The translations under genes were made by a program, and so were the position numbers. 35,367 bases of DNA from Methylobacter sp. GTDB taxonomy: Bacteria > Pseudomonadota > Gammaproteobacteria > Methylococcales > Methylomonadaceae. Location of the stretch: assembly GCF_004322395.1 (NCBI RefSeq), contig NZ_SCTW01000141.1:1-35367 (forward strand). The letters run 5' to 3'. Shown here in pieces: positions 1,750 through 12,004 of the stretch; position 1 is the stretch's first letter; the number at the start of each line of letters is the position of its first letter. The notes beneath the pieces are model-generated. The model had not been told where the DNA came from. It saw only the letters and a list, made by a program, of their open reading frames with translations, and made no database searches.

Positions 1750-2673
1750 TTAGCTCATTAAAGCTTTAACGTGAATAGCGACACAAGCAGCTAATGCCTT
1801 GAGATTATAACCACCTTCCAACGCTGAAATAATCCGGCCTTTGCAGTAACTGTCAGCGATGGTCATTAATTCTTGAGTTACCCATTTATAATCATCTTCA
1901 ACCAGCATGATAGAAGCTAAAGGATCATCTTTATGGGCATCAAAGCCAGCTGAAATCAGTACTAAATCAGGCCTGAACTTTTTTAGTGCCGGCAAAATGA
2001 TGCTGCTGTATTTTTGCCTGAATTCAACGCCTGAGTCACCCGAAGCCAACGGTACATTGATAATATTGCCGACGCCGGTTTCTTCAGGATGACCTGTGCC
2101 GGGGTAATGCGGCATCTCATGGCTGGATATGTAGAGTATATTGGGCTGGTTGTAAAAAGCAGCCTGCGTGCCATTACCGTGGTGGACATCAAAATCGACA
2201 ATGGCGATGCGTTCGAGTTGATAATGTTGACGCGCATAATTGGCTGCAATCGCTATATTATTAAACAGGCAAAAACCCATTGCGATATCAGGCTCAGCAT
2301 GATGACCCGGTGGGCGTACTGCGCAAAAGGCATTGTCGGCTTTGCCGGTCAGGACGTTATCGACGGCGTCGCAAACAGCTCCAACCGCACGAAAAGCAGC
2401 TTTTTTCGACCCAGGCGACAGCACAGTATCGTGATCCAAATAATGCTCGCCTTGTTTCGGTATGGCTTCAATAATGGCGTCAATATGAGATTGGGGATGA
2501 ATCAGCCTAATTTGTTGTTCTGTCCCAAGTGGCGCAGATTGCCGGATTAAACTTGAGAACTCTGGCACTGCCAATGCTTTTTCTATGCTTCTAAGCCGGT
2601 CGGCGCATTCAGGATGCCCGGCACCTGTTTCGTGAAGAAGAAAGTCGGGATGGCTGTAATAAAGTGTTTTCAC
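1750..2673 (-). CDS. Histone deacetylase / acetylpolyamine amidohydrolase family protein
   Basis: This is a zinc hydrolase of the arginase/deacetylase fold, expected to remove acetyl groups from acetyl-lysine or acetylpolyamines in the cytoplasm. Visible signatures are RPPGHHAEPD (catalytic His pair), DFDVHHGNGT (zinc Asp and His), SAGFDAH (second zinc Asp) and the ALEGGYN tail. The open frame begins at 2733, but similarity to the family starts at VKTLYYSHPDFLLHETG. I therefore choose the GTG at 2673, preceded by a purine-rich AGCGAGA, which gives 308 residues. The longer start would overlap the upstream regulator. The regulator gene ends 44 bases upstream on the same strand, suggesting one operon. 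The true substrate cannot be read from sequence. Confidence 0.9.
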   Translation of the reverse strand: MKTLYYSHPDFLLHETGAGHPECADRLRSIEKALAVPEFSSLIRQSAPLGTEQQIRLIHPQSHIDAIIEAIPKQGEHYLDHDTVLSPGSKKAAFRAVGAVCDAVDNVLTGKADNAFCAVRPPGHHAEPDIAMGFCLFNNIAIAANYARQHYQLERIAIVDFDVHHGNGTQAAFYNQPNILYISSHEMPHYPGTGHPEETGVGNIINVPLASGDSGVEFRQKYSSIILPALKKFRPDLVLISAGFDAHKDDPLASIMLVEDDYKWVTQELMTIADSYCKGRIISALEGGYNLKALAACVAIHVKALMS

Positions 2674-2717
2674 AAAGTCTCGCTTTAACCAAGTGGGTAC
2701 GCATTCAGTATCTTTTT

Positions 2718-3590
2718 TTAAACACCACCCCAAATTGAACCGCAGCCTTCATTCGCTTCTATATCTGGCGAATTTGCTTGAGCAGACAGAGGCGCATTTA
2801 ACTTATATCCGAAACCTTTCACAGTCAAAATCCATTGTGGATTATTCGGATTATTTTCAATCTTTTTTCTTAATAAATGCATATATTGATAAAGATCTGA
2901 CTTGGTTACCCGGTTATTTTCAGGCCAGACATGATTAATGATTTCATCGGTCATAAACACGCGATCGACATCCTGCGTCAGCAACTCGAAAAGCTCAAAT
3001 TCTTTACGTGTCAGATTCAGCGATTTTCCATTAAACATGACAGATTTAGAACGTTTATCAATTTGAAAAAAAGGTTCAACCATAAAACAACGGCTATCAC
3101 CATTTCCTGGTGTGTTGTTTGTTAATTGACTATGGCGGGCAACCGCATTTTGCTGCTCAAACATTAGCCGTCTCCGATCATTAGCAATCCGTCTCGCACG
3201 CTTCCGATTTTCTTTAATAAGACGATGGTGATGCTTGAATCTGAAGCGCAAATAATTATCCAGTTGATTAATATCAGAGGACGCATCTAAAACAGCATCA
3301 ACCCAGCAAGTCACTTCTTCTTCCAAAGCGGAAGCGTTATTGCTATGTAAATAACATACTGGAATTTCATGATTATTACTCACTTCACGTATCAATTTAT
3401 TTATCTGATACTGTACCGGATAAGTAGCCAAAATAACTATGTTTGGCTGCATTTTGAAAGTTACATTAATTGATTCCATGTCAACTGTTGCTTCAAAAAG
3501 TTTATAGCCATGTGCATGACAATACCCTTTTAATAAGCCCTGATGAAAGAGGTTGTTACTAATTAGCGCAATCCGAAAATCTGTATTCAT
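2718..3590 (-). CDS. OmpR-type winged-helix regulator with degenerate receiver domain
   Basis: The C-terminal roughly 95 residues form an OmpR/PhoB DNA-binding domain: LTRKEFELFELL, the recognition region around RVTKSDLYQYMHLLRKKIE, and the wing TVKGFGYKL. The N-terminal 120 residues resemble a receiver fold (RIALISNNLFHQGLL, then NIVILATYPVQ) but lack the acidic pocket and the phospho-acceptor Asp. An Arg/Lys-rich helix links the two. The start at 3590 is chosen because AGGA lies just upstream of the ATG; an upstream extension to 3647 has no such site. No histidine kinase is adjacent. The protein probably acts as a phosphorylation-independent transcription factor, perhaps of the deacetylase-like gene behind it. 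Confidence 0.85.
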   Translation of the reverse strand: MNTDFRIALISNNLFHQGLLKGYCHAHGYKLFEATVDMESINVTFKMQPNIVILATYPVQYQINKLIREVSNNHEIPVCYLHSNNASALEEEVTCWVDAVLDASSDINQLDNYLRFRFKHHHRLIKENRKRARRIANDRRRLMFEQQNAVARHSQLTNNTPGNGDSRCFMVEPFFQIDKRSKSVMFNGKSLNLTRKEFELFELLTQDVDRVFMTDEIINHVWPENNRVTKSDLYQYMHLLRKKIENNPNNPQWILTVKGFGYKLNAPLSAQANSPDIEANEGCGSIWGGV

Positions 3591-4054
3591 ATGAGTCCTC
3601 GTAAAATCCGTTAAAGCGAATAGACACAGGGTCTGATGGGACAACAAAGAAAAATGATTTGTCTGTCTTAAAAAAACTAAAAGTTTTAATAAATTAATTA
3701 GTTATAACGAACATTATCACAATTATAGAGTAATGCACAACATTCCTACTTTCGAAGAATCCGGTAAGCAATAAAGCCGGATTATTTCGGCGATTGATAA
3801 GTATTGACACGTATTTTATTTATGAATTTGCTTTGTTAAGTTAAGACACATCAATTTAAACTTAAAAAATACTTTATTTCTTTAATTTGGAATGTAATTG
3901 ATTCTCTACAGATCTTTTCTTAAATATAACGCAAAAATAAACAGTTATAACCAGCTAATTAAGTAATTGAGGATTCGGCTTTAAAAATTGGATGATTTTA
4001 ATTGCGCAACATATTTTTGCCCTACATATTCGATAAACTCATAATAGGTGCCTA
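3591..4054. other. AT-rich divergent intergenic region
   Basis: This region separates the minus-strand regulator from the plus-strand PAS gene and must hold both promoters. It is strongly AT-rich. A small inverted repeat (ATCCGG and CCGGAT arms) spans 3759-3782. I see no convincing RNA gene or open frame. Confidence 0.5.
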
Positions 4055-5041
4055 ATGAGAAAGGAAACTATTAAAAAGAACCCGCTCAGGGTAGAAACTG
4101 GGGGGAAACGTTATCATGTTCTTGCAGAGAAATGTCGCACAGAAGATTCGCTGTATGAACTTCCGGGACACCAGATTGAGCTGGGGATACAGAATGAGGA
4201 GTTACTGCGCGCTGATGCTGCTTTGGCGAAATCCCAGGATCGTTATGCAGAGCTTCATGATTTTGCGCCGGTCGGCTACTTTGTTCTCACGCACGATGGT
4301 CTGATCGACGAAATTAATTCTAGCGCTCTCGAACTGATCGGAGGGGAACGCAAAAAATTATTGCATCATCATTTTTCAGTTTTCGTTGCCGCCGCCGACA
4401 TCGACCATTGGCATCTTTTTTTCTCAGGTGTAATGAAGCATTACCAGCGGCAAAATACTTGGCTAACGCTGAAACGTGGCGACGATACCGAATTTTCAGT
4501 TCAGCTAGACTGCCGGCGTGTAATAAATGGTGATAAGAATCCCGTACTCTATGTTTCCATTACCCAAATTACCGAAGGTCAACTGGCAGAGAGAGTTTTT
4601 CCTGAAGTTGAGGCGCACACCCCGTCCATGGTTCTGGTTAGGGCCGAGATGATGGGGTCATGGGACTGGGATATCTCTACGGGACGTGTCGTCTTTAATG
4701 AACGCTGGGCCAAACTGCGCGGCTATCGGCTGGAAGAAATAGAGCCTCATGTCGATACTTGGGAAAATGGCATTCATCCTAATGACTTTTCTGTTTATCA
4801 TGCTGCTTTAACAGCGCATTTAGAAAATCGTTTACCATTTTTTCAGGTTGAATACCGCATTCGAACCTTATCGGGACCATTGATTTGGGTATTGAATCGC
4901 GGCATCGTAATCAAGCGCGATATCGCGGGAAACCCTTTACGCATGGCGGGTATCGAGATAGACATCACCGAGCGTAGGAGGCGTAATGATGAAGAGTTGC
5001 ACATCGTCGCTTACAATCACCACTCGAATGTCGTAAATTGA
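4055..5041 (+). CDS. PAS-PAS protein lacking an output domain
   Basis: Two PAS domains can be seen. The first lies at about residues 65-175 (FAPVGYFVLTHDGLIDEIN). The second is a PAS_3-type domain at about 200-310 (MGSWDWDISTGRVVFNERW, IHPNDF, ending in the usual GIEIDITERRR). After ITERRRRNDEELHIVA one expects a GGDEF or kinase domain. The protein instead stops 8-9 codons later, and those codons are antisense to the end of the neighbouring PilZ gene. It may be a truncated diguanylate cyclase or sensor kinase, or a stand-alone sensor. The ATG at 4055 has no strong ribosome site. Ligand unknown. Confidence 0.8.
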   Translation: MRKETIKKNPLRVETGGKRYHVLAEKCRTEDSLYELPGHQIELGIQNEELLRADAALAKSQDRYAELHDFAPVGYFVLTHDGLIDEINSSALELIGGERKKLLHHHFSVFVAAADIDHWHLFFSGVMKHYQRQNTWLTLKRGDDTEFSVQLDCRRVINGDKNPVLYVSITQITEGQLAERVFPEVEAHTPSMVLVRAEMMGSWDWDISTGRVVFNERWAKLRGYRLEEIEPHVDTWENGIHPNDFSVYHAALTAHLENRLPFFQVEYRIRTLSGPLIWVLNRGIVIKRDIAGNPLRMAGIEIDITERRRRNDEELHIVAYNHHSNVVN

Positions 5042-5298
5042 ATGGCAACTTCACAACCATTTGCAAATTTATGCGTGCGCACTACCCGGCCTTCACAGCG
5101 AAGACGGATCATATTTCTTCCCTTTTTTTGCATCGAAATAAAGAAGCGAAGCATTAAGTTCGGCTCAATAATCTTATCCGTAGTAAAGCAGACCCCAGTA
5201 GTGCTCAGATTGCGTGTTACGCCGGTACCTGTATCAAGTTCAACAGTACAAAAGGTAGGATACCGTCCGGCTAACCGGTTTTCTTTAATATTGTTCAT
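5017..5298 (-). CDS. PilZ domain protein
   Basis: This is a single-domain PilZ protein of about 93 residues, a c-di-GMP receptor family. The arginines in ENRLAGRYP fit the RxxxR motif and NLSTTGVCF fits the (D/N)xSxxG motif; both contact c-di-GMP in characterised members. I choose the ATG at 5298 because GGAG sits 8 bases upstream; in-frame ATGs at 5310 and 5328 are possible. Its 3' end overlaps the 3' end of the convergent PAS gene by 25 bases. The partner it controls cannot be inferred. Confidence 0.82.
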   Translation of the reverse strand: MNNIKENRLAGRYPTFCTVELDTGTGVTRNLSTTGVCFTTDKIIEPNLMLRFFISMQKKGRNMIRLRCEGRVVRTHKFANGCEVAIQFTTFEW

Positions 5299-5539
5299 TT
5301 CTTGCTCCATTTGATGATTAGGTGGCACGGTAGCGGACTGTCAATATAAGCGAAAGTGGTAAATTTGCTCTACTTGCAGCTTAATCGCGCAAGAACACAA
5401 TCTTTCTATTTTTTGGGAATAATAGACTCTTTTTATTTATAAAACAATCAACTATTTACTATCTAGGATTTGTTAAGGGCTGCACTTCATCGCAGACACC
5501 CGAACAGTCAACGATTAGCTGATTCTTCATAACAAATCG

Positions 5540-5680
5540 CGTCTCGGCCGCTTCTTCCGCGAAGGTGTCCATACTTACTCAGTCTTCAATGCCGTTTAAT
5601 ACGGTGCAGAAGATAATCATGATGCCGGTCAGCATTTTCACTTTCCTGGCGTGGATTGTTTAGCTCGGCAAAGTAAAGGC
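5540..5680 (-). pseudogene. ISAs1-family transposase N-terminal relic
   Basis: Reading the minus strand, LYFAELNNPRQESE (from about 5679) is followed in another frame by LTGIMIIFCTVLNGIED, a stop TGA at 5579-5581 where the family has Trp, then VSMDTFAEEAAE. This matches the N-terminal pattern of ISAs1/H-repeat transposases (F-x-DPR, then A-V-x-x-G-x-x-D-W-x-x-x-x-x-F-A). One frameshift and one nonsense change break it, and no DDE core or terminal inverted repeats are visible. The rest of the roughly 730-base gap between the PilZ gene and prfC is AT-rich and shows nothing else. Confidence 0.55.
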
Positions 5681-6031
5681 GTGGGCCAGGTAATATAAAA
5701 TCTCTTGTTAAAAATTATTTCAACAAATTTTAGTTATTAAGGAATAGATATTGTAAAAAAATAATCTCATTCTGTATTGAAAGAGACTGAAGCTTACTTA
5801 TTTTATATGAATTGGGTAAAATTAATCAGCTGAAGCTACTTTTTGTATTTTGAAAAACCTGATTTACTGTTATTTAAAAATAGCTTTAGGTATATCGGTA
5901 GTAGTGTTATTCCAACAGAATTTTTATATCATCAACAAAGAAAGTCTTTAATCCAAGCATTCGTCCCCATCAACAAATGGGTACTCTTTATTATTATGTA
6001 CCATATGCGTACTTATTTTTTGCATTAAAAC

Positions 6032-7618
6032 ATGTCGATTACTGAAATAAGCTCTGAAACCAAGCGTCGTAGAACTTTTGCCATCATATCTCATCCCGAC
6101 GCGGGAAAGACCACACTGACCGAAAAACTATTGTTGTTCGGAGGCGCAATCCAGCTGGCAGGCTCGGTAAAAGGCCGTAAAGCGGCACGTCATGCGACTT
6201 CCGACTGGATGGAGATGGAAAAGGAACGGGGTATTTCGGTGACCACTTCGGTGATGCAGTTCGAGCATAAAGACAGCATTATCAACCTGCTCGATACCCC
6301 AGGCCATGAAGACTTTTCCGAAGATACTTACCGTACCTTGACAGCGGTCGATTCCGCACTGATGGTGATAGACGTTGCCAAAGGCGTTGAAGAAAGAACC
6401 ATTAACCTGATGGAAGTGTGCCGTCTACGCACTACGCCGATTTTGACCTTCATTAACAAGCTGGACAGGGAAGGGCGGGAACCCATTGAATTGATGGACG
6501 AGGTTGAAAACGTCTTGAAGATCAAGTGTGCCCCGATGACTTGGCCTATCGGCATGGGTAAACGCTTTAAGGGAGTTTATCATCTGTATAAGGATGAAAT
6601 TCATTTGTTCAGTGCCCAGCATGGCGGCAAGATTGCCCAGGCTGAAATCATCAAAGGTTTGGATAATCCAAAGCTGGATGAGCTGCTGGACGATCAGGCC
6701 CAAGAACTCAGGGATGAAATCGATTTGGTTAAAGGCGCCAGCCATGAATTCGATCTTGAAGACTATCTGGCAGGTAACCTGACGCCGGTTTTTTTCGGTT
6801 CAGCTATCAATAATTTCGGGATCATCGAGCTACTTGATGCGTTCGCTGAATATGCGCCATCGCCCAGGCCCAGAGAAGCTGAGCAGCGCAAGGTATTACC
6901 CGATGAGCCGGCGTTTACCGGCTTTGTGTTTAAAGTGCAGGCCAACATGGATCCGTCCCATCGAGACCGGATTGCCTTTTTAAGAGTGTGTTCCGGTAAA
7001 TTCGATAAGGGCATGAAAATCCATCATGTGCGTATAGGTAAAAATGTCCAGGTTGCCAACGCGATCACTTTTCAGGCCGACAGCCGAAAAAGCGTCGAAG
7101 AAGCGTATCCCGGCGACATCATTGGCCTGCATAACCACGGTACTATTCAAGTCGGCGATACCTTTACCCAAGGCGAAACGCTTAAATACGGAGGCATTCC
7201 TTATTTTGCGCCGGAGTTGTTTCGCCGCGTAGTGTTAAAGGATCCGTTAAGAGCCAAAGCCCTGCAAAAAGGACTGGTACAATTAACCGAAGAAGGCGCG
7301 ACTCAGTTATTTAGGCCGTTAAAAAACAACGATCTTATTTTAGGTGCGGTCGGTGTTTTGCAGTTTGACGTCACTGCGTTCAGGCTTAAGAGCGAATACA
7401 ATGTCGAATGCGTTTATGATGCCGTACCCATTTCAGCCGTGCGCTGGGTAAGCTCAGACAAGCCGGCCAAGCTGGAAGAGTTCAAGAACAAAGCCTTTGA
7501 TAATCTGGCCGAAGACGGTGGCGGTTACTTGGTTTATGTCGCCAACAGCCGAGTCAATCTGCAATTGACTGAAGAGCGCTGGCCGGATATAAAATTCAGT
7601 GCGACGCGGGAATTATAG
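6032..7618 (+). CDS. prfC: Peptide chain release factor 3
   Basis: RF3 is the GTPase that recycles RF1 and RF2 from the ribosome after peptide release. The G motifs are clear: HPDAGKTTL (G1, residues 21-29), DTPGHEDF (G3) and NKLDREGRE (G4). The protein is 528 residues, essentially the length of E. coli RF3, and ends in the usual FSATREL-like tail. The ATG at 6032 gives the expected N-terminus ([16 protein letters not shown]). No strong Shine-Dalgarno is visible, and the upstream region is very AT-rich. The gene stands alone, with about 170 bases to the convergent EAL gene. Confidence 0.98.
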
Positions 7619-7790
7619 GGTTTTTCATTTCATCAACATGCGGCGGAACGTTTCCATCGCGTAGGTGCTAATTACCCGTATGTTGTGAACTTAAAAATAA
7701 GATGGTGCGATGAATAGTTACAGATTAAATTCACGCGAGAGATTTGTTTGTATTCTTGTGGTAATGTAACTTACTTGATCTGTCGAGAGC

Positions 7791-9635
7791 CTATGACCAA
7801 CGGACTTCATGCAAACCATTTATATCGACTCTTTGCAATACGTCATTAATTTGAAAGGTATTTTGCTTAAGAAACTGTTCACTTGGTTTGCCAAAAATAT
7901 AACCCTGCCCATAATTGACGCCTATTTCTCTTAAAATTTTTATCGTTTTTGGGCAATCGACAAATTCGGCTATGGTTTTTTTACCTAATTTTTTTGCAAT
8001 CTGGTGCATTGACTGCACCAACACTTGGTCTGTTTCATCATTCGTCAGATTCTGAATAAACTGGCCATCGATTTTCACATAATCAACAGGAAATTTTTTT
8101 AGATAATTAAAAGAGCAAAAGCCGGCGCCAAAATCATCCAAAGCAAAATGGCAGCCCAACGCGCGAATTTGATAAATCATCGATCTTGATTGTTTAAAAT
8201 TATCTATCGCTGCCGTCTCAGTAATTTCAAAAGTAATGCGTTCGGCTCTAACAGAGGTCATTTCAAGTTTTTGTTTAATCATCGGCAATAAAGATTCATC
8301 TTGAAAAGCAACACTGGAAAGATTGATCGCTAAAGCAATATGCGATAATTCAACGGGCAATGCAGCAAGATAATCAATAGCATTTTCGACTACCCAGGAA
8401 TCAATTCCATGAATCAAACCCATTCTTTCAGCTGCTGGAATAAATTCCCCAGGACAAATCACCGCACCATTTTCGCCTCTTAATCGGATTAAGACTTCAT
8501 AATGAGAAATATTACCATCGGTAAGATTTATAACCGGTTGAAATAATAAAAAGAAACTTTTGTTTAGAAAAGCCTCTCTTATGATGGGAACCCAATAAAT
8601 ATCACGATGCCTCTCTCTAATAGCAGTATCTTCATTGTCATATTTCCAGATCATATTTCGTCCATTTGTCTTAGCCATACAACAAGCTTGATGAGCCTGA
8701 AAGATTAGTTCACGAGGATGTACGATTGATTTTGCAGAGTTTAACGAACTTAACCCTATTGAAGCAGTAATATTGTAAGCAACCGTTCCAATTACAAAAC
8801 GGAAATTATCTAAAGCTGTTCTGATATTTTTCGACCAGTTCTCAGCCTGAGAAACCGTGCAGTTCTCCAGATAAAGACCGAATTTATCAGAGTCAATTCT
8901 GGCTAACAGCCCAACATTGTTTAACGCGTTTCTTATTAAACCGATGACGTCTATCAGTAAGCGATCTCCAACATCAAAACCTTCGAGTTCATTAAGCAAA
9001 CTGAACCGGTCGAGATCGATGAACAACAACACACTGTCTTGAGAAAAGTTTCTGCTGCTATTTCTGTTCAATGTCAGCTGGATATGTTGCTCTAAACTGC
9101 TCCTGTTAAGCAGACCTGTAAGTTCATCATGTCCAACTAAGTATTTAAGCTTTGCATCTACAAGTTTTCGTTCAGATAATTCTGTTAACAGTCTTTCTTG
9201 CTGTTTGTAGCGCAGATATTTTTCACTCTTCAAACAAATGAGAAAATTAACCGCCATTTGCAACTCAATCGAGCTGTAGTCTCTCTTTAATTGATAAACC
9301 AGATCCTGACTATCCAGTTGCCAATCATCACTATCAGGAGCTAAATCTTTTTTTAAAATAAGCAGAGGAATAAATACTCCGCCATCCCATTGGGAAAAAG
9401 ATTTATATAAATCCTTAATCTGACAATCGGGCAAGTCATTACTGATAATAATCAGCCCTATCGCTTCCGGGTTTTCATAATATTCTCTGATAATCTTATA
9501 GATTTCAGCGCCATTAACGCCAAATTTAAAATTACAAAAACCTTTACTCTGTAATTCCTCAGTAATTCTTGCTATTGAAGACGCATTAGTCTCGGCAATA
9601 ATGATAATTTCTTGTTTTCGCGAATTAAATAACAC
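7791..9635 (-). CDS. Receiver-like / degenerate GGDEF / EAL phosphodiesterase
   Basis: A protein of about 614 residues with three regions. Residues 1-110 resemble a receiver domain (QEIIIIAET, IGLIIISNDLPD). The next domain begins HDELTGLLNRSSLE but its signature GGDEF is DSDKF, so cyclase activity is unlikely. The C-terminal EAL domain keeps its catalytic set: YEVLIRL (Glu), INLSS, FEITET, DDFGAG, VKIDG, IAEFV and GYIFGKP. The likely role is c-di-GMP hydrolysis, with the degenerate GGDEF perhaps sensing GTP. The open frame can start with TTG at 9647, but I favour GTG at 9635 because GGAG lies 6 bases upstream. Base composition is markedly AT-rich relative to neighbours. Confidence 0.9.
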   Translation of the reverse strand: MLFNSRKQEIIIIAETNASSIARITEELQSKGFCNFKFGVNGAEIYKIIREYYENPEAIGLIIISNDLPDCQIKDLYKSFSQWDGGVFIPLLILKKDLAPDSDDWQLDSQDLVYQLKRDYSSIELQMAVNFLICLKSEKYLRYKQQERLLTELSERKLVDAKLKYLVGHDELTGLLNRSSLEQHIQLTLNRNSSRNFSQDSVLLFIDLDRFSLLNELEGFDVGDRLLIDVIGLIRNALNNVGLLARIDSDKFGLYLENCTVSQAENWSKNIRTALDNFRFVIGTVAYNITASIGLSSLNSAKSIVHPRELIFQAHQACCMAKTNGRNMIWKYDNEDTAIRERHRDIYWVPIIREAFLNKSFFLLFQPVINLTDGNISHYEVLIRLRGENGAVICPGEFIPAAERMGLIHGIDSWVVENAIDYLAALPVELSHIALAINLSSVAFQDESLLPMIKQKLEMTSVRAERITFEITETAAIDNFKQSRSMIYQIRALGCHFALDDFGAGFCSFNYLKKFPVDYVKIDGQFIQNLTNDETDQVLVQSMHQIAKKLGKKTIAEFVDCPKTIKILREIGVNYGQGYIFGKPSEQFLKQNTFQINDVLQRVDINGLHEVRWS

Positions 9636-9964
9636 ATTAATCTCCAAACAGAATTGTAAGACATAATAATCAAATTTCAGAAAGCTTCAAAAAATTCCGC
9701 CTGCCAACAAGTCCAGTGTTAATGAACTTTTTATTATCAATTAGTTACATTTGCGGGTGAGCGCCAGAACAGTCGAACCATGAACGCAACCAGCTTTTAG
9801 TAGTCTTCTTTGTATCTTTATTGCTTACAAAACTCAAACTATCTAAATTAACGCTAGTTTTAATAATTTTTCTTGTATTCCTTCAAATTCTAACTAGTCT
9901 TTATTACATTAGTTCGTTTGTGTGTCTTATTTAAAAATTATATACAATAAAATTTGATTTTCCC
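9636..9964. other. AT-rich divergent intergenic region
   Basis: This gap separates the EAL and HDOD genes, which are divergent. It is AT-rich with several A/T runs. A TATACAAT-like box lies near 9940, upstream of the HDOD gene, but no matching -35 box is clear. No RNA gene or coding relic seen. Confidence 0.4.
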
Positions 9965-10807
9965 ATGTTAGCCGCCATTTTATCTAATTTAAAAATATCA
10001 GATTTGTTCAAAGGGGACTTACAACTGACGTCGCCACCGAATATTTATTTTGAACTGCAACAAATCATTGCAAATCCTGATAAGTCAATTACGGATATCG
10101 GCTTTATCATTGAACAAGATCCTGCATTATCTATCCGGTTGCTTAAAATAGTTAATAGCGCTTTTTTTGGCCTTCCTGGACAAATCACAACAATTAAGCA
10201 CGCCATAGCTATTATTGGAGTAAAGGAATTACAAAATCTGGTACTGGCTACTGTTATTATTGACAAGTTTTCGTCGCTGCCGAGTGGCCTCCTCTCCATG
10301 CAAGATTTTTGGGCAAGAAGTTTGCGCTGCGCACTTATTAGTAAAGAGCTCTGCATATACAAAATAAATAAAAGCGACCTTGATTCAATATTTATTTGCG
10401 GATTACTGCACGATATTGGCCAACTGGTTTTCTACCGCAGAATTCCTGAACTAGCGCGTCAAATCGGTCTTTTAGTTGAATCGAGCGGTGCTAATGAAAT
10501 TCAGGCAGAAAATAATATACTCGGTTTTAATCATTATCAGACGGGTGCTGAATTAGTCCGGTTATGGAAACTGCCTGAAATCATAATTGAAACCATTGGC
10601 CAACATAATAATCCTGATTACGCGGGCGTTTTTGCAGATGCCGCATCAACTATAAGAGCTGCTAGTTACTTGTGTAGAATGGAGCACGTTGACGCTCATC
10701 TAAACACTTTTTGCAATATACCTGTGGAAGATTTAAGTGATATTATTGATAGAGTCCACGTCCAATTTGAATCTGTTTTTAAAATTTTCTATCCAACATT
10801 TAATTAG
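9965..10807 (+). CDS. HDOD domain protein
   Basis: A 280-residue stand-alone HDOD protein. The domain fills most of it: SPPNIYFELQQIIANPDKSI, then IIEQDPALSIRLLKIVNSAFFG, then IKHAIAIIGVKELQNLVL, and an HD-like CGLLHDIGQLVFYR. HDOD proteins are regulatory relatives of HD hydrolases and often act in chemotaxis, c-di-GMP or stress signalling; most are not shown to be enzymes. The ATG at 9965 lacks a clear Shine-Dalgarno. Base composition is AT-rich, like the divergent EAL gene. The function here cannot be narrowed further. Confidence 0.88.
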   Translation: MLAAILSNLKISDLFKGDLQLTSPPNIYFELQQIIANPDKSITDIGFIIEQDPALSIRLLKIVNSAFFGLPGQITTIKHAIAIIGVKELQNLVLATVIIDKFSSLPSGLLSMQDFWARSLRCALISKELCIYKINKSDLDSIFICGLLHDIGQLVFYRRIPELARQIGLLVESSGANEIQAENNILGFNHYQTGAELVRLWKLPEIIIETIGQHNNPDYAGVFADAASTIRAASYLCRMEHVDAHLNTFCNIPVEDLSDIIDRVHVQFESVFKIFYPTFN

Positions 10808-10971
10808 CTATACGCTGATGCATCATGGAAACGGAGCGTTACCGTAGTGAAAGGCATGGTTGAAACCGGCTAGGTTAATAAAAACGACATAGAAATTGCA
10901 GCCGCTATTGTGGCGTAGGGCTTACATACCTTAGGTTTTAAAGTGCTTTTAGAACAGCAGGTGACATGTTT
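10808..10971 (+). pseudogene. Unidentified coding relic
   Basis: In one plus-strand frame the translation looks protein-like: YADASWKRSVTVVKGMVETG, a TAG, VNKNDIEIAAAIVA, a second TAG, then GLHTLGFKVLLEQQ. Two amber codons interrupt it and I do not recognise the family. It runs directly into the CRISPR-like repeat. It may be the edge of a gene cut by whatever rearrangement collapsed the CRISPR locus, or chance. Confidence 0.3.
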
Positions 10972-10972
10972 A

Positions 10973-11000
10973 GGTTCATCCCCACAGGTGTGGGAAACAC
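10973..11000 (-). CRISPR. Solitary type I-E-like CRISPR repeat
   Basis: Read on the minus strand, this 28-base unit begins GTGTTTCCCACACC and ends GTGGGGATGAACC. That is the layout of a type I-E repeat: GTGTTCCCC-like start, central palindrome, GATGAACC 5'-handle end. Only one copy exists in the window, so this is a remnant and not an array. Its sense orientation matches the cas3 relic beside it. Confidence 0.65.
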
Positions 11001-11498
11001 CTTTAAGATTTCCTTTGGGTAGCATGCCATGATGACCAGTGACTATTTCCAGCCAAGGTTCAAAGTTTCTTAGTCATGATCGATGTCTGAACGATCCAGC
11101 TCATCTAACGGGAATTTCTCAGCCAGAAAAGCCGATTGAAGAACTTCGCGCCAAAGACAAAACCCTAAACTATCGTGCCGTTCCGAATAATGCATATTGG
11201 GGTTGTCTTTTACCAAATCAGGCGACAAACCCGGTTTCAATCCTTGAAAAGTACGGGAAAACTTACCCAAATCATGTAAAGCCAAACACAAAACAAATAA
11301 TGTTCTTAGCCATTCCGGCTCGACTTCCAGTTATTTTGCTAACTGCTTGCAAAGCGGTTTGGTGGGCACCAATAATTGCCATCCTACTGCTGCCATATCC
11401 AAACAATGGTAAGGCAACAGATGATACTTCGCCCCATTTTCATTATCTGAACCGGCCTTGCCCCAATATTTGTAATACAGACTTTCCTTTACACTCAT
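11001..11498 (-). pseudogene. cas3: cas3 (type I-E) 5'-end fragment, broken
   Basis: From an ATG at 11498 the frame reads MSVKESLYYKYWGKA, then YHLLPYHCLDMAAVG, then LCKQLAK. A TAA stop at 11331-11333 interrupts, after which the same frame continues LEVEPEWLRTLFV, ALHDLGKFSRTFQ and so on to a stop at 11070-11072. After one frameshift comes FEPWLEIVTGHHGMLPKG (about 11064-11011). YHLLPYHCLDVAAVG-, HDLGKFS- and TGHHG-type motifs in this order are the N-terminal HD nuclease domain of Cas3 in type I CRISPR systems, best matching the I-E style. The helicase half and all other cas genes are absent. The CRISPR-like repeat starts about 25 bases beyond the TGHHG codons. Confidence 0.8.
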
Positions 11499-11561
11499 CA
11501 CCTAGCGATCAACTTAAGCCCCATTATCCACACTCACGACCTCAATCGGTGAGGTTGAACT

Positions 11562-11785
11562 TTATTTTTTATAAATTTTTTGCATGGCCTCTATTTGTTC
11601 CCTGACGCCATCTAACAAAAACTGCGGCGATTTAACCTCCACTTTCGAGCCATGCTTGAGGATGATCCATGATCAATTCTCGACTGTCGTTAAACGGGAT
11701 GCTCAACTGGTAGTTGCCGTTGATGTTTAATTTGTAGTGTCGGTTCCAATCCAGACCGTTACCCGATAAAGCACGGTTATTAAAT
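11562..11785 (-). pseudogene. WYL-domain regulator C-terminal fragment, frameshifted
   Basis: The minus strand reads RALSGNGLDWNRHYKLNI, then YQLSIPFNDSRELIMD. After a one-base shift it continues ILKHGSKVEVKSPQFL, then LDGVREQIEAMQKIYKK and a stop at 11562-11564. The PFNDSRELIMDILKHG-VEV pattern is typical of the C-terminus of WYL-domain transcription regulators of the YafY kind. Such regulators are often encoded immediately upstream of type I cas operons, and here the fragment sits 63 bases before the cas3 relic on the same strand. The DNA-binding half is missing. Confidence 0.65.
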
Positions 11786-11793
11786 TTTACGCA

Positions 11794-11828
11794 TAAAAAA
11801 AGCCCTACACTTGCATGTAGGGCTTTGT
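11794..11828 (-). terminator. Rho-independent terminator of the tRNA operon
   Basis: On the minus strand a perfect stem of AGCCCTACA and TGTAGGGCT with a short TGCAAG-type loop is followed by a run of seven T. It begins about 7 bases after the tRNA-Asn gene, in the correct orientation to end the two-tRNA transcript. Confidence 0.92.
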
Positions 11829-11834
11829 TTTATT

Positions 11835-11910
11835 TGGCTCCCCCGGACGGGCTCGAACCGCCGACCTAATGATTAACAGTCATCCGCTCTACCGACTGAG
11901 CTACAGGGGA
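11835..11910 (-). tRNA. tRNA-Asn (GTT)
   Basis: 76 bases on the minus strand starting TCCCCTGTAGCTCAGTCGG. The D arm, the anticodon loop CTGTTAA (anticodon GTT), the T arm with GGTTCGAGCC, the acceptor pairing TCCCCTG/CGGGGGA (one wobble) and an encoded CCA end are all present. It lies 17 bases downstream of tRNA-Arg and is followed by a terminator. Confidence 0.97.
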
Positions 11911-11927: not shown

Positions 11928-12004
11928 TGGCGCGCCCGGAGAGATTCGAACTCCCGACCGCACGGTTCGTAGCCGTGTACTCTATCCAGCTGAGCTACGG
12001 GCGC
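11928..12004 (-). tRNA. tRNA-Arg (ACG)
   Basis: 77 bases on the minus strand starting GCGCCCGTAGCTCAGCTGG. The anticodon loop CTACGAA gives ACG, which becomes ICG after deamination and reads CGN codons. The T arm (AGTTCGAAT), the acceptor stem GCGCCCG/CGGGCGC and the encoded CCA are intact. It is the first gene of a two-tRNA operon. Confidence 0.97.

Follow-up and report, generated by a model that had tools for sequence, protein, structure and literature searches.

A degraded stretch between an HDOD-type gene and two tRNA genes is in all likelihood what remains of a type I-E CRISPR-Cas locus that no longer functions; a deletion would have fused the HD-coding part of cas3 with one of the array's repeats. 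It lies in a window of 35,367 nucleotides, by which we mean the whole stretch of DNA analysed; this window is an entire contig (C119) of a 4.59 Mb genome assembled in 157 contigs, with a completeness rating of 100%. The host belongs to the genus Methylobacter, whose members are methanotrophs (i.e., methane-eating bacteria), and its HDOD-type protein is 74-79% identical to counterparts in four Methylobacter metagenome assemblies. The reading is based on direct observations of homology, gene order, the position of the junction, disabling mutations, and the absence of Cas1 and of other locus pieces in our searches. The initial annotation had described three relics in the expected order and the same orientation, namely the tail of a WYL regulator, the start of cas3 and one repeat, and all three were found so. 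The features of the site are as follows.

9965-10807, plus strand: HDOD-type gene, on the other side of the relic from the tRNAs (name taken from the initial annotation)
10823-10852, no strand assigned: scrap of a dispersed repeat
10876-10947, plus strand: out-of-frame piece of a GGDEF/EAL-type gene, with 74-82% nucleotide matches in relatives
10972-11000, minus strand: single type I-E-like CRISPR repeat, 29 nt, on the same strand as cas3
11001-11007, minus strand: deletion junction; BLAST homology to cas3 stops at 11008, the repeat at 11000
11001-11498, minus strand: 5' part of cas3, a pseudogene, from the HD domain to just past the TGHHG motif, with Cas3 family matches
11331-11333, minus strand: nonsense codon (TAA) in frame; the intact relatives read a sense codon here
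11562-11722, minus strand: 3' end of a WYL-type regulator (WCX domain), with its stop codon at 11562-11564, from a WCX match and the alignment to relatives
11723-11785, minus strand: may be further WYL text
11780-11826, minus strand: edge of the conserved tRNA block; a hairpin resembling a terminator is seen there by eye
11835-11910, minus strand: tRNA-Asn(gtt)
11928-12004, minus strand: tRNA-Arg(acg)

The cas3 text was searched against three profile collections. The Pfam family Cas3_HD matches the minus strand at 11334-11498 (9.9e-8), 11073-11330 (3.4e-12) and 10873-11073 (0.04, below the Pfam cut-off), and these three open pieces follow one another along the profile (positions 1-36, 48-115 and 119-139). 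NCBIfam puts the first two pieces with Cas3 and matches the third weakly (0.031), with all matches under the whole-protein cut-offs, as expected for fragments. PADLOC also puts the first two with Cas3, including Cas3e, and returned no match for the third. The identification of 11001-11498 as the 5' part of cas3 is thus borne out by profile searches. The gene was of the I-E kind: its pieces match PADLOC's Cas3e and the NCBIfam entry PRK09694, which we take to be the type I-E Cas3, and the piece at 11073-11330 has 72-74% amino acid identity to Cas3 proteins from loci in which cse1 and cse2 are also present (genomes G021, G009 and G001). In translation, the minus-strand text keeps one frame from 11498 to 11073 and then runs in another frame up to the repeat. 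Compared with intact cas3, it presents the nonsense codon, indels and a frameshift near 11073, so the nonsense codon and frameshift annotated earlier appear both in translation and against intact genes.

On the tRNA side of cas3, the segment at 11565-11672 matches Pfam WCX with 6.7e-4 and 20.4 bits, just under the 23.9-bit cut-off, and PADLOC's WYL weakly (0.0038); the NCBIfam search gave no match. Aligned to the intact copies of G009 (L054) and G021 (L053), the WYL text carries a one-base insertion, i.e., a frameshift. The tail had been annotated as extending to 11785. It is firm, albeit frameshifted, for 11562-11722, but 11723-11785 matched neither the WYL gene of relatives, where the nucleotide alignment stops at 11722, nor any family, the one open frame tested (11635-11829) giving no match in Pfam, NCBIfam or PADLOC.

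When 61 genomes, the window's own included, were searched with an 86-residue piece of cas3, matches were obtained in 14. The best three besides the window come from G021, G009 and G001, all of the same genus, with 72-74% identity and frames of 899-900 residues. Their loci read, on one strand, cas3 - cse1 - cse2 - cas7 - cas5 - cas6e - cas1 - cas2 - repeats, where cas3, cse1, cse2 and cas1 were located by tblastn with these loci's own proteins and the remaining names come from sequence and order. A WYL gene precedes cas3 in G021 and G009, and not in G001, whose I-E locus has no WYL ORF (L056:8999-9146) and whose cas3 begins about 150 bases after a cyaA-like gene.

The window's positions 11008-11722 form one alignment through the WYL end, the intergenic gap and the start of cas3, with 78.3% nucleotide identity to G009 and 77.1% to G021 (about 717 bases); 11014-11537 aligns to G001 with 73.5% identity over 524 bases. 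Hence, the window has in common with the intact loci of G021 and G009 the WYL - cas3 order, the strand and similar repeats, and with that of G001 the strand, similar repeats and 73% nucleotide identity over those 524 bases. While these three genomes keep full cas3, cse1, cse2, cas7, cas5, cas6e, cas1, cas2 and repeats, no cas gene is whole in the window. The relic is collinear with intact loci of its genus up to the junction, in agreement with the collapsed type I-E locus proposed in the initial annotation.

These observations can be explained by the following sequence of events. The ancestral minus strand would have carried a WYL regulator, cas3, the Cascade genes, cas1, cas2 and the array, in this order. 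A deletion would have fused the HD-coding part of cas3 to an array repeat, with the helicase part of Cas3, Cascade, cas1, cas2 and the other repeats gone, and the 5' part of the WYL gene would have been lost on the tRNA side. The remains would then have collected the nonsense codon and the frameshifts.

The point homologous to 11008 precedes the first repeat found by 10.8 kb in G021, 10.5 kb in G009 and 9.8 kb in G001. The junction can therefore be explained by one deletion of roughly this length that also took most of the array. We infer a single event, from the HD-coding region to the array as first suggested, since it is the simplest account of the junction. The exact borders differ slightly from those first given: one I-E-like repeat is present, but it extends over 10972-11000 (29 nt) rather than 10973-11000, and although the TGHHG text lies 25 bases from it, as annotated, homology to cas3 continues to 11008, leaving a gap of seven unexplained bases.

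Piecemeal decay, in which several smaller deletions, recombination or mobile elements gave the same end state, is possible, if doubtful. It would fit the separate loss of the WYL 5' part, the differing neighbours of relatives on both sides, and the scraps around the relic. The GGDEF/EAL-type fragment at 10876-10947 has its matches inside long ORFs that look like GGDEF/EAL genes in the four cases checked (L087-L090, domain name read from the sequence), and several EAL-type genes match it about equally well. The dispersed-repeat scrap has at least 13 matches in G032 (13 of 39 first-look candidates were scored) and one in G003; both scraps belong to the debris at 10808-10971, between the HDOD-type gene and the repeat. 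Against this, only seven bases separate the cas3 text from the repeat, and no scrap of another cas gene lies between them, for which one event is the simplest explanation.

The repeat itself was identified with a 29-nt query identical to the array repeats of G006 and G002, allowing up to three mismatches. This yielded one match in the window (10972-11000, minus strand), with three mismatches, whereas 100 shuffles gave no match at all. At its last base, the window's repeat differs from array repeats. In an array of G001 and in one array of G009, the terminal repeat has a degenerate 3' end, and in the other G009 array it does not; degenerate terminal repeats are described as usual in the available portion of Touchon and Rocha (2010, PMC2886076). 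The surviving repeat may be the array's terminal one, although this is a guess.

The same repeat could also be read as a former ectopic regulatory repeat from the gap between cas3 and cse1, left by a shorter deletion, with Cascade lost in another event. We consider this highly improbable. Thirteen loci were scanned with one repeat consensus and up to nine mismatches (the G020 locus is cut by the contig end in cas3, that of G008 gave no cse1 match, and the scan is less sensitive in G041, G052 and G055, whose array repeats are 5-6 mismatches from the consensus). Ectopic repeats do occur in the cas3-cse1 gap, as units in G009 and G012 and as one repeat in G006. Nevertheless, they are antisense to cas3, whereas the window's repeat is on the cas3 strand, like the arrays in the scanned loci, and no same-strand repeat was found just behind cas3 in the 13 loci, G020 being cut off inside that gene.

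The gap repeats are an observation in their own right. The scan found two in G009, one in G012 and one in G006, all antisense to cas, and none in the other ten loci. G009 (L054:12728-12817) and G012 (L184:7293-7382) have degenerate repeat-spacer-repeat units, the second, more degenerate repeat of G012 being seen by eye 32 bases before the first. The G009 spacer matches a same-strand site 84 bases off at 17 of 19 seed positions, with an adjoining AAG, presumably the type I-E PAM; none of 300 shuffled spacers did as well, their best reaching 16. For the G012 spacer, a site 92 bases off matches at 14/19 with AAG, and a site in cas3 with AAA at 16/19; on its own, the G012 match is not beyond chance and not convincing. 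Towards cse1, each of the two AAG-flanked sites adjoins a small ORF (about 36 residues) in which a hydrophobic stretch is recognised by eye. In G009 a promoter-like sequence also stands beside the site, but such sequences are about as frequent as chance predicts (2 against 1.8 expected). In G006, the gap holds a single antisense degenerate repeat (L181:7085-7113), and hydrophobic text of a similar kind is, as judged by eye, broken up there, which would fit a joint decay of guide and ORF.

The units of G009 and G012 resemble Cre-type modules (CreR, CreTA or CrePA-like) and are candidates for such. As far as the available text of the sources describes these modules (PMC12737573, PMC9458426, PMC8501985), G009 shares with them a degenerate repeat-spacer-repeat outside the array and a spacer partly matching a nearby AAG-flanked site. 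In its available text, a review gives CreR as widely distributed in type I systems (PMC12737573), so a I-E guide of this kind is not new in itself. A tiny hydrophobic partner of an I-E Cre-type guide might be new, no description of one being found among the literature matches listed. It is very unlikely that the ancestral locus had a Cascade-repressed toxin module between cas3 and cse1, of the sort suggested by G009 and perhaps G012, losable only by one deletion taking toxin, guide and Cascade together. If it did, the window would be the fossil of an escape from CRISPR addiction, the module having gone with Cascade in the deletion; the window itself carries no trace of it.

Returning to the reading of a deletion between cas3 and the array, we considered what the rest of the genome retains. 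No second such repeat occurs in the genome within three mismatches of the pattern used. The family search for Cas1 gave zero matches in this genome, compared with matches in 45 of the 61 genomes overall and in 18 of the 22 other sampled members of the genus; the near-complete loss of the locus is of interest against this background. For cas3_core, the six matches in the genome are all under the cut-off, the best with 40.7 bits against 102.45. Furthermore, 10.9 kb of the G009 locus (L054), from WYL to the start of cas1, was searched in the genome. Among the 40 of 67 first-look candidates that were scored, pieces of this locus, including cse1, cse2, cas7, cas5 and cas6e, yielded only the relic and a dispersed intergenic repeat. 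The latter lies just before cas1 in G009 (L054:19492-19709) and has 39 match rows elsewhere in the window's genome, some of which fall on both strands of one place.

A search of the genome for the Cas10 palm domain produced two matches, one of them above the cut-off (30.9 bits, cut-off 27), in a frame of 352 aa at C118:4777-5082. Given that 352-aa frames score similarly in G021, G011, G019 and G017, that the E. coli control also passes the cut-off, and that clear Cas10 matches reach 101-125 bits, this match is taken as a probable GGDEF (diguanylate-cyclase) relative. The components of a working I-E locus, i.e., Cascade genes, cas1 and a multi-repeat array with spacers (sought by the I-E repeat pattern), were not found in these searches. 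From the family and repeat-pattern searches of the genome we infer that no CRISPR immunity is left in this lineage, in line with the loss of immunity assumed at the outset. These searches also bear on the junction being an assembly chimera, which is scarcely to be credited: although the assembly has 157 contigs and assembling repeats is difficult, the missing cas genes turned up on no other contig in the searches, and the nonsense codon, the frameshifts and the truncated WYL gene are independent of the junction.

The initial annotation expected relatives to have the locus intact in the interval from the HDOD gene to tRNA-Asn, but none was found there in any relative examined. In G021, G002 and G007, homology to the HDOD block breaks off at 10797-10817; in G019, G021, G011 and G018, homology to the tRNA block begins at 11780-11792. 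Beyond the tRNA-Asn terminator (about 11780), the sequence differs between the window and three of these relatives, and the contig of the fourth ends within about 1 kb (L108-L111). The next gene after the HDOD-type gene in G021 corresponds to the one at 1750-2733 in the window, which indicates that the gene order around the relic has changed. When 1755-10817 is compared with L058 of G021, the blocks 1755-7618 and 7826-10817 are swapped in order, without inversion.

The three intact loci adjoin other genes, at three different places. Neither the 36 stretches surrounding HDOD-type genes nor the 36 surrounding the histidine-kinase gene gave a match to cas3, cse1, cas1, WYL or the repeat; these stretches overlap in part, with several per genome, including paralogues, and mostly 1.5 kb flanks. 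Among the 20 relative loci scanned (24 were fetched), four have tRNA-Asn and tRNA-Arg beside the histidine-kinase gene, with no cas text beside those tRNAs. The breaks in homology on both sides, the intact loci elsewhere and the empty stretches suggest that the relic sits at a rearranged or variable site.

A former site between cyaA and a GGDEF/EAL gene was also considered, as cyaA directly precedes cas3 in G001 and is beside an EAL-type gene in G019; the EAL scrap at 10876-10947 would then have been a leftover of the former flank. It was rejected: the G001 contig that continues the same-repeat array enters lpxB-like and other genes, with no EAL gene, and in the present genome cyaA is on contig C12, before gapA- and pyk-like genes (names read from the sequence).

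Given such a site, the fragment might have come already broken, by horizontal transfer or rearrangement, next to tRNA-Asn, with no working copy ever present here. This is unlikely, yet several observations are compatible with it: the homology of four relatives that stops at the tRNA terminator, with the sequence beyond differing or the contig ending; the intact loci at three different places; and a third-position divergence from G021 of 0.38 in cas3, compared with only 0.28 in each of three neighbouring genes. On the other hand, a decayed fragment has no evident advantage by which to spread, and intact loci occupy several sites in the genus, although these points are not decisive.

Codon positions were also compared. 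Relative to G009, the relic presents 20.5, 15.6 and 36.1% differences at first, second and third positions (122 codons). When the divergence at first and second positions together is divided by that at third positions, the ratio is 0.91-1.05 between the relic and the three intact copies, and among intact cas3 genes 0.44-0.63 for the whole gene and 0.65-0.92 for the first 161-162 codons; in the neighbouring HDOD-type gene it is 0.87. The start of cas3 evolves fast even in intact copies, hence the ratio does not demonstrate relaxed constraint in the relic. That Cas3 families still recognise two of the pieces well suggests, as an impression, that the loss is not very old.

CRISPR loss is common and already described, and the window is a clean but ordinary example of it, from another genus. 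Its clean junction is useful for studying the origin of large I-E deletions. The available portion of Touchon and Rocha (2010, PMC2886076) reports that in Salmonella and Shigella, degraded loci of the E. coli subtype (I-E) have been whittled down to a cas3 pseudogene. As far as that portion describes them, they are the same kind of remnant as the one studied here, whereas the window keeps only the HD-coding end of cas3, set against a single repeat, in another genus and at another site.
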